From: Saprospiraceae bacterium
GTDB taxonomy: Bacteria; Bacteroidota; Bacteroidia; Chitinophagales; Saprospiraceae
Reading direction: 5' to 3'
Length of the DNA stretch: 32,157 nucleotides
NCBI GenBank assembly: GCA_029263015.1
Contig: JAJCYI010000229.1
Coordinates: forward strand, 1-32,157
Shown here: positions 14,730-28,117 of the stretch, piece after piece
How positions within the stretch are numbered: position 1 is the first letter of the stretch
How the letters are laid out: each line of letters begins with the position of its first letter
Made by a program: the position numbers and the translations under genes
Notes under the pieces: generated by a model
The model's database searches: none
The model's input: the letters and a program-made list of their open reading frames with translations, nothing else
Told to the model about the DNA's origin: nothing

Positions 14730-15170
14730 TTAATTCGGAGGTGTTCCACCTTCAACTACAAGTCCCATGCTTCTTGCTGTACCAGCAATCATTCTCATTG
14801 CAGAATCAATGACAAAGCTGTTAAGGTCAGGCATTTTGTTTTCAGCTATGACTCGCACTTGGTCCCAGGTCACATTACCTACTTTTTGTCGGTTGGACTC
14901 TGGTGAACCTTTCTTGAGTTTAGCGGCTTCCAACAATTGGACTGCTGCAGGTGAGGTTTTAATGACAAATTCAAAAGACTTATCCTTATAAACCGAAATA
15001 TGCACAGGCAACAACTGTCCCATCCGATCTTGAGTAGCAGCGTTGAAACGCTTGCAGAACTCCATGATGTTTACACCCTTCGCACCCAAAGCAGGTCCGA
15101 TTGGTGGGGAAGGGTTGGCCTGGCCACCTTTCGCTTGAATCTTAATTAGAAATTCGACTTCTTTAGCCAT
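14730..15170 (-). CDS. rplK: 50S ribosomal protein L11
   Basis: A 146-residue protein of the GTPase-associated centre. The N-terminal domain has [20 protein letters not shown], and the C-terminal rRNA-binding domain ends with [15 protein letters not shown]. Length is slightly above the usual 141 because of a short C-terminal tail (EGGTPPN). It follows nusG by 68 bp; a hairpin in that spacer is a candidate leader control site. Confidence 0.99.
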
Positions 15171-26982: not shown

Positions 26983-27003
26983 GGTCAGGTGTAACTAACT
27001 GAT

Positions 27004-27240
27004 GTTGATGTTTTGCAAAGATGTTAGATGTGGTTTCTGCTGCGTTGTACCCTCCTCGTTGAAACGAGGGGTTTCAAGATGTTGGATGTAACCAGTTTTC
27101 AAAAAACCACTTGTCGTGTAAACACTTTATTGGAACAACCGCCCCGCCCTTGAACATTACAACCGCTGAACAGGACTCTCATTTAACATTTTGCACCCCC
27201 CGTTTCAACGGGGGGCAAGAAACGATCGGGGCACATCTAT
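27004..27240. repeat. REP-containing unit A, left of the transposase
   Basis: The unit starts with a 39-base segment (27004-27042) that matches 27817-27855 at 36 positions. It holds two palindromes in opposite orientation: CCTCGTTGAAACGAGG (27054-27069) and C6-GTTTCAAC-G6 (27196-27215). They share the core CGTTTCAACG read on opposite strands. Bases between the palindromes have diverged from unit B but keep short matches. The right end that unit B has is missing here, replaced by the end of the transposase gene. Confidence 0.75.
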
Positions 27241-27246
27241 GAAACT

Positions 27247-27684
27247 TTACCCCAGATAGCGAACCATTCCATACCGCACCATAAATTCCTCGCACTCTTT
27301 TTTGAATGTCTTCTTCCCATGATGTTCTTCTTGGATTTTGATGTATTCTCTGACAGATGCCACATGCGACTGGCTGACAGACACCGCATAGTAATCATCA
27401 GCCCAATCAAAATACTTATCAAATAGGTTGGTTTTATTCGCCCAACTTGAGCTTTCCCCTTTTAGTAGCTTCATGATCTGTGCAATATTCTGGTCACAGG
27501 CCATTGATATTAGACAATGTACATGATCGCTAGCTCCGTTGATAAAATCAAGGTAAATCTTTTTCCCTTTGGCGTTCGCCTTAATGTGTTTGAATAATTC
27601 AATGCGCTTGTTTTTGTTTTCCATGAAGGGGACCCTCTTTTTTGTAGCCCAGACTGCATGTATCCAAATGCGTACTTGTGCCAT
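27247..27684 (-). CDS. REP-associated tyrosine transposase (IS200-like, Y1 HUH family)
   Basis: A 145-residue Y1 single-strand transposase. The HUH motif is His54-Val-His56 (ASDHVHCLISM) and the nucleophile is Tyr114 in VREYIKIQEEHHGKKTF, with the typical EHH following. Length matches IS200/IS605-type TnpA and RAYT proteins. No accessory tnpB is nearby. The gene lies between two diverged copies of a unit holding GTTTCAAC-core palindromes, so it is more likely a domesticated REP-mobilising RAYT than a free insertion sequence. The C-terminus (MVRYGMVRYLG) is short but not clearly truncated. Confidence 0.88.
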   Translation of the reverse strand: MAQVRIWIHAVWATKKRVPFMENKNKRIELFKHIKANAKGKKIYLDFINGASDHVHCLISMACDQNIAQIMKLLKGESSSWANKTNLFDKYFDWADDYYAVSVSQSHVASVREYIKIQEEHHGKKTFKKECEEFMVRYGMVRYLG

Positions 27685-27719
27685 GGTTTTTTGATTTTAG
27701 GTTAAAAAAAATAGTTGGT

Positions 27720-27727
27720 CAAATATA
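27720..27727 (-). promoter_or_regulatory. Candidate -7 box of the transposase gene
   Basis: On the - strand TATATTTG matches TAnnTTTG exactly, 36 bases before the start codon, giving a leader of about 25-30 bases. A TTG lies 15 bases further upstream, closer than the usual spacing. Confidence 0.45.
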
Positions 27728-27816
27728 GTGCTTTCCTTACTTCAAGAAGTGTTTAGAGTGACATTCTGATGTAGACCATCATCAATTTGGAACCCTGCTT
27801 TTCTATAACCAATAAT

Positions 27817-28066
27817 GTTGATGATCTGCAAAGATGTTAGATGTGGTTTCTGTTGTCCTCCTCGTTGAAACGAGGGGTTACAAGATGTTAAATGTATTCA
27901 GTTTTCTAAAAATCACTTGTCAGTTACTCAATTTTTTTTTGTCACCTGCCCTGCCCCTTATTGCTATAAAACCCAAAGACAGCTCTCATCTATCATCTTG
28001 TAACCCCCCGTTTCAACGGGGGGAAAGCACCAGGCACACCCACATCCAACATCTTTGCAACACATC
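27817..28066. repeat. REP-containing unit B with inverted ends, right of the transposase
   Basis: A unit of about 250 bp. Its left end (27820-27846) and right end (28040-28066) are near-perfect reverse complements built on GCAAAGATGTTAGATGTGG. Inside are two palindromes in opposite orientation, CCTCGTTGAAACGAGG at 27860-27875 and C6-GTTTCAAC-G6 at 28004-28023, each next to TTGTAAC/GTTACAA and ACATC/GATGT words. Unit A to the left of the transposase is a diverged direct copy. The arrangement of two inverted REPs corresponds to a BIME. Confidence 0.75.
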
Positions 28067-28097
28067 ACATCTATCCAATATTACCCTCAGGCACATC

Positions 28098-28117
28098 CCC
28101 CTCGTTGAAACGGGAGG
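28098..28117. repeat. Single REP palindrome near the S10 peptidase stop
   Basis: A fifth copy of the palindrome, CCCCTCGTTGAAACGGGAGG, with one mismatch in the stem, lies 18 bases from the S10 gene stop codon and may protect that mRNA end. It has the same CGTTGAAACG core as the copies around the transposase. Confidence 0.65.

Follow-up and report, generated by a model that had tools for sequence, protein, structure and literature searches.

Inverted hairpin units around a Y1 transposase gene in a Saprospiraceae genome: a probable REPtron-like locus outside the RAYT class

In a window of 32,157 nucleotides (contig C229 of the 6.95-Mb genome of a Saprospiraceae bacterium), a single-copy gene for a Y1 HUH transposase with intact HUH and tyrosine motifs is bracketed by inverted hairpin units, further copies of which lie elsewhere in the genome. 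The hairpins around related genes follow a common rule of loop and orientation, and in the Weeksellaceae the gene keeps the same neighbour. The locus is probably REPtron-like, with a transposase of subclass 1.2 that would bind, cut and mobilise its cognate REP units, for which the short 5' foot would serve as the guide. Such a locus type is not described in the literature found. REP sequences paired with RAYTs are the textbook case of transposase domestication in bacteria.

Palindromes and units in the window

The core CGTTTCAACG occurs six times in the window, against 0.06 expected from shuffles. As an earlier note on this DNA had described, five palindromes that share it lie within 27057-28112 in alternating orientation (-, +, -, +, -), and they bracket the gene of a 145-aa, IS200-like Y1 transposase (27247..27684, minus strand). 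The sixth core (15041-15050) falls within a 146-aa open reading frame (14730-15170), which we take to be rplK, and is probably a chance occurrence. The genes that flank the transposase gene presumably encode a methylmalonyl-CoA-mutase-like and an S10-peptidase-like protein.

The two related units that had been placed on either side of the transposase were recovered at 27002-27219 and 27815-28067, with outermost ends that are indeed inverted copies of each other (27006-27033 and 28040-28067, 28 nt, 93%). Each of the two is a foot-to-foot pair of asymmetric elements of about 95 nt, and the term unit is used here for the latter. A unit consists of a foot ACATCTAnCATCTTGTAA, an 8-bp stem with the loop TTCA or TTTA, about 20 nt and then TCACATCTAnCATCTTTACAAAACATCAnCATCA, its 3' part being a repeat of the foot motif.

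The pair A/B lies downstream of the transposase gene and the pair C/D upstream. Three of the four units score highly with the covariance model, namely unit A (26993..27089, minus strand, foot to the right and tail to the left, hairpin 27052-27071; 90.2 bits, E 6.8e-14), unit C (27806..27895, minus strand, hairpin 27858-27877; 81.6 bits, E 3.6e-12) and unit D (27986..28079, plus strand, hairpin 28004-28023; 86.8 bits, E 3.3e-13). Unit B (27179..27272, plus strand, hairpin 27196-27215; 33.7 bits, E 0.015) is decayed, with a tail that runs into the 3' end of the transposase gene. The foot reads GTAA at C and D and GAAA at A, and is altered at B. The two units nearest to the gene, B and C, are mutually inverted, so that on the gene strand the nearest upstream hairpin (C) has the loop TTCA and the nearest downstream hairpin (B) a loop of the TRAA type. 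What the earlier note had called a fifth REP at the next gene exists as a palindrome (28098..28117, minus strand), although it is only a remnant, a two-mismatch hairpin that has lost its foot and tail and on which the covariance model is silent at E <= 10.

The covariance model was trained on 22 units. In their stems, 96.6% of the cells are paired and 33 cells carry a double change, against 7.6 in shuffles (0 of 500), while the measure of pairs changed on both sides was matched by 44 of 500 shuffles; the test is partly circular, since the hairpin scan had picked most of the 22 units.

The transposase and its place among known systems

The window protein matches Pfam Y1_Tnp (3.3e-23) and passes the cut-off of the NCBIfam IS200/IS605 model NF033573 (56.6 bits vs 55); its score with the NCBIfam model REP_Tyr_transpos (20.6 bits) falls below the cut-off of 80. 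All of 12 aligned relatives match the IS200 model, and 11 of them match REP_Tyr_transpos too (E <= 0.01). The tyrosine motif is of the form Y---Q--HH (YIKIQEEHH), with Y114, Q118, H121 and H122 invariant across the 12 relatives, and the motif DHVH, also conserved in the alignment, fits together with the length of 145 aa the DH[IV]H and approximately 148 aa of subclass 1.2. The WQ motif of this subclass is replaced by WA in the window protein and its closest relatives, and is present in most of the loci of the best 80 of 111 relatives. By motif, the protein fits TnpAY1 subclass 1.2. Six Y1 genes were found in the genome, all with a tyrosine followed by Q..HH; the transposase gene itself is single copy there, and its next homologues are 29-43% identical. 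In a side observation, a palindrome was noted upstream of a similar one, at 710-766; REPs within tnpA genes have been described as unique to subclass 2.4 (PMC6006769). Among solved structures, the closest sequences are those of ISDra2 (E 0.0016) and the IS608 TnpA (E 0.12). Both also come out ahead of the REP-associated transposase 4er8 (rank 30) in a fold comparison, for which a structure model of middling quality (pLDDT 78, five-row alignment) was used to assign the fold class only.

Given the Y---Q--HH motif in the place of Y---NP and the low score with REP_Tyr_transpos, the protein falls outside the RAYTs as they have been published, contrary to the name given in the earlier note. Of the REP-RAYT layout proposed there, the REPs around a Y1 transposase and the copies elsewhere stand, whereas the RAYT class does not; the foot is GTAA in place of the GT[AG]G of RAYT systems. 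The locus works like a REPtron and, by protein motif and foot, is no RAYT.

The published description of subclass 1.2 agrees with the window protein in length (about 148 aa), in the motifs DH[IV]H and Y---Q--HH, in the occurrence in Bacteroidetes and in low copy number. Quentin et al. (2018) assign the subclass to Cyanobacteria and Bacteroidetes, with low copy numbers and no REPs in their Table 1 (PMC6006769), whereas here inverted hairpins flank the window gene and its relatives and recur elsewhere; the WA of the window protein likewise differs from the WQ of the published table (PMC6006769). The automatic REP search of these authors required GTAG or GTGG (PMC6006769), and feet such as GTAA, ATAG and ATTG would therefore be passed over. 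No report of REPs for subclass 1.2 was found in the literature searched, which comprised main texts and few subscription papers.

The RAYT or TnpAREP REPtrons of class 2 share with this locus the single-copy Y1 gene between inverted REPs, the REP pairs and the dispersed extragenic copies (PMC2817692, PMC8266576). The REPs of S. maltophilia are alike in further points, namely the perfect 8-bp stem, the tetranucleotide on its 5' side and the short loop, the bases of which matter (PMC8266576). The window locus differs from them in its Y---Q--HH motif, its GTAA foot and its TTYA loop, and Nunvar et al. (2010) saw RAYTs with abundant REPs in no group but the gammaproteobacteria (PMC2817692). GTAG and CGTC REPs as well as TIRYTs were described by Di Nocera et al. 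(2013; PMC3733652), and TIRYTs are similar in that their Y1 genes lie between inverted repeats that are not GTAG REPs and that are in part dispersed. Most TIRYTs, however, belong to class 2.1 (PMC6006769) and have GGGGWSAS repeats, and no rule of a TTYA loop was seen in the parts of that description consulted (PMC3733652). The layout of inverted hairpins with a conserved TTYA loop recurs around many genes of transposases published as REP-less, and it is read here as a REPtron class of class-1 transposases, which would mobilise the units.

Hairpin rule and neighbourhoods of related genes

A scan of genome contigs returned 111 relatives, the best 80 of which were kept; they come from Saprospiraceae/Chitinophagales, Chryseobacterium and its kin, Bacteroidales, Ignavibacteria, Chlorobiota, KSB1 and other taxa. 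Five of the 80 were dropped, for more than one stop or a flank under 150 nt, which left 75 loci. Perfect stems of at least 8 pairs, with a GC content of half or more, stand on both sides of the gene in 38 of the 75 loci, against 7 of 1500 shuffled flank pairs. When 8-bp stems with a 4-nt loop and no more than one mismatch were scanned, the upstream flanks had the loop TTTA in 43 loci, TTCA in 21, TAAA in 18 and TGAA in 10, and the downstream flanks TAAA in 41, TGAA in 19, TTTA in 12 and TTCA in 10, any other tetraloop being found in at most one locus each. Of the hairpins nearest to the gene, the upstream one has a TTYA loop in 61 loci and a TRAA loop in 5 (none in 9), and the downstream one a TRAA loop in 58 and a TTYA loop in 5 (none in 12); the combination of upstream TTYA and downstream TRAA is present in 49 of the 75 and absent in 26.

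By the same scan, 322 kb of flank more than 1.5 kb away contained 98 hairpins of any loop, with TTTA in 3, TTCA in 0, TAAA in 2 and TGAA in 2. The rule is kept upstream in 36 and downstream in 37 of the 45 loci that remain without the 30 of the Weeksellaceae, and in 22 and 20, respectively, of 24 loci when one is taken per 70%-identity cluster. As the rule had been derived from the same 75 loci, it was fixed before being applied to 30 further loci, which a search across the phylum (395 genomes) had supplied and from which two duplicates and one locus with a short flank were removed. In the resulting 27 loci, the upstream hairpin is TTYA in 17, TRAA in 4 and lacking in 6, the downstream hairpin is TRAA in 24, TTYA in 1 and lacking in 2, and both sides are as predicted in 17.

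Across the loci, the loop (TTYA), the type of foot and the orientation are conserved, while the stems vary and the palindrome core is not conserved. The tetranucleotide on the 5' side of the stem is ATAG in 83 units, ATTG in 24, GTAA in 19, CTAA and ATTA in 8 each and GTAG in 4, with rarer others. About 22 nt past the stem, most units carry another, smaller hairpin (the second hairpin), GG(G)CTTTAGCC(C), after which AAAACYT follows in Chryseobacterium. A predicted dependence between letters 3-4 of the foot and the dinucleotide at the 3' end of the unit was looked for, and nothing decisive was seen. Among 30 other loci of subclass 1.2, mostly more distant, hairpins stand on both sides in 11, against 1 of 600 shuffles, and some of these loci have other loops; two of them (L077 and L087) have GTA upstream and mostly TAC downstream.

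The neighbourhoods differ between the groups. In the Weeksellaceae, the transposase gene lies beside one and the same gene, which we take to be sua5-like, in 30 of 30 loci, at distances of 65-1748 nt. Comparison of the fetched Chryseobacterium loci found the second unit present or absent between species, and no clean insertion junction or empty site. Given the constant neighbour and the variable second unit, the Weeksellaceae transposase behaves as a resident gene. The proteins of the two direct neighbours and of three further genes of the window, on the other hand, had no match at 1e-10 in 82 loci (those of the 80 relatives plus L092 and L093), and there is therefore no neighbourhood shared with the window, so that in the Saprospiraceae the gene may have moved.

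These observations bear on whether the locus is an ordinary IS200-type insertion sequence, with the palindromes as its ends and the scattered copies as transposition debris. The score above the IS200/IS605 cut-off and the ISDra2 and IS608 TnpA as the nearest solved structures speak for this, and so does the hairpin anatomy, for a guide tetranucleotide stands 5' of the left-end hairpin of IS608, and a small second hairpin 3' of that of IS608, ISDra2 and IS605 (PMC5934647), as in the units described here. An insertion sequence of this kind is nevertheless unlikely, as the gene is single copy in its genome, with next homologues of 29-43% identity, the hairpins at its two ends are inverted to each other across the group in place of a terminal left/right pair, units without a gene are dispersed, and the neighbour in the Weeksellaceae is constant. 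No tnpB-like frame was noticed among the listed open reading frames near the window gene.

Dispersed copies and the proposed mechanism

The covariance model finds eight units in the genome of the window (E <= 0.02), four in the window itself and two at each of two other places (C186 and C219), where they are arranged tail-to-tail and where no transposase was seen in the stretches read around them. The earlier note had held that a palindrome found only here would be just the ends of one insertion sequence; the full unit is present four times more, at two places, and with the REP layout being real the locus is therefore more than such ends. Two of these four units have another stem, CCCGCCAT-TTTA-ATGGCGGG, and for this reason a search for the core misses them. 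The genome-wide count of the core that the same note had suggested gave no enrichment (19 matches, against 27 for the reversed-pattern control); as a test of dispersal this count was misleading, because the stems vary, and it was dropped for searches with the unit. With eight units, the family is small in this genome, far under the more than 100 copies that are usual for the REPs of RAYTs.

Of 60 related genomes, 11 have matches to a model of the unit (R1; E <= 0.1), with counts that are lower bounds, as at most 69 candidates were scored per genome: at least 8 in the genome of the window, 68 in G031, 53 in G007 (of the same genus as the window's genome), 52 in G003 and 36 in G005, and at least 6 in G011, 4 in each of G002 and G008, 3 in G006 and 2 in each of G009 and G012. 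G031 has a transposase homologue of 63% identity, and of its 20 fetched copies all have the hairpin and 19 the GTAA foot, as sharply bounded monomers of about 100 nt; the left flank is common to another copy in 6 and unlike that of other copies in 14. It was also noted that the CATCNNNNATC repeats on the two sides of a given hairpin have the same last two N letters (..AA or ..GC) in 19 of these 20 copies (L297-L316), and the two ends of the unit seem to evolve together.

In G003, G005 and part of G007, copies are instead carried inside other repeats. In G007, 22 of the at least 53 matches belong to eleven near-identical REP dimers (L259-L269) inside a MITE, ten of them with both terminal repeats, and these are REPs hitch-hiking in a MITE. 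The terminal repeats of this MITE are GGTTCTTCGTG/CACGAAGAACC, and short flanking duplications were noted by eye in four copies. At four further places in G007 (L270, L272, L275 and L276), REP dimers are, by eye, enclosed by the arms of longer inverted repeats, which are of several different sequences, as if the dimers entered the tips of large hairpins or were the cores of foldback elements. All the copies read in G003 (12) and G005 (8) are, by eye, within longer repeats, and no transposase match was found in these two genomes at E <= 1e-15. The copies in G003, G005 and part of G007 were therefore not counted as support, the reading of their number as REP spread was rejected, and copy number alone is no measure of the work of this transposase.

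These genomes would suit the view that unrelated transposases (of the DDE type) spread MITEs or longer repeats to which the units belong, and that the Y1 gene was inserted among them or is carried as a passenger. The hitch-hiking dimers of G007 and the copies of G003 and G005, which lack a close Y1 gene at E <= 1e-15, would be expected under such an origin; it is improbable, given that the hairpin pair surrounds Y1 genes in many phyla, its orientation being conserved while the flanks are unrelated, and that most copies in G031 have distinct left flanks and all 20 share the hairpin.

In Chryseobacterium-type genomes, the exact 18-mer AACGGGCTTYAGCCCGTT occurs in 18 of 18, with 4-28 copies per genome, and has 0 copies in 6 other genomes, its reversed control being absent from all 24. 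Of the 42 copies in two genomes, 36 were inspected (22 of 28 in G067 and 14 of 14 in G060), the six left out in G067 including two beside its transposase. An ATAG foot was present in 28 of the 36 and the second hairpin in 27, and the transposase motif was found at 1 of the 34 loci of these copies. Of the 36, 32 are covered by no open frame of at least 90 codons, and in 8 a TTTT follows the stem within 8 nt, both of which would suit a role in transcription termination or RNA processing that has nothing to do with the transposase. Such a role is very improbable as the explanation of the hairpins, since the window palindromes have no terminator-like site and no Rfam match, the downstream hairpin points against the transcription of the gene, and the foot, the tail and the orientation rule would be left unexplained.

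Returning to the REPtron-like locus, we infer that transposases of subclass 1.2 move or manage the units. A single-stranded unit, for example on the lagging-strand template, would fold into the 8-bp hairpin, and a transposase dimer would recognise the TTYA loop and the shape of the stem, though not its sequence; loop bases matter for IS608, ISDra2 and the REP transposase of S. maltophilia (PMC8266576). The tetranucleotide of the 5' foot, GTAA here and roughly NTWR in the group, would act as the guide, the flanking repeated motif CATCTAnCATCT would be cut via a 5'-phosphotyrosine, and the unit or the inverted pair would be re-joined elsewhere.

We also lean towards the wider view that subclass 1.2, whose proteins stand on the IS608 side of the family, has a REP world to itself among Bacteroidota, Ignavibacteria, Chlorobiota and KSB1, a partnership of Y1 transposases with dispersed REPs outside the RAYT class, with free stems and clade-specific loops (TTYA, and GTA in a paralogous clade). 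If this is true, the domestication of IS200-type transposases into REP managers took place two or more times, or else predates the split between class 1 and class 2. With its simple code of a free 8-bp stem, a TTYA loop and an NTWR-like foot, a second REP class would be an independent system open to testing, would provide a proposed substrate for a transposase subclass with none listed before, and would be the likely source of the dispersed palindromes in Chryseobacterium and Saprospiraceae genomes.

Finally, a second palindrome, CGTCCCGTAGGGACG, has 15 copies in the genome of the window, 13 in G001 and 16 in G007, with none for the reversed control in these genomes. Arrays of it flank both sides of the subclass 1.2 paralogues L077 (C14 of G001) and L087 (C41 of G007), and small clusters of it occur in the genome of the window at C72, C79, C108, C177, C179 and C186.
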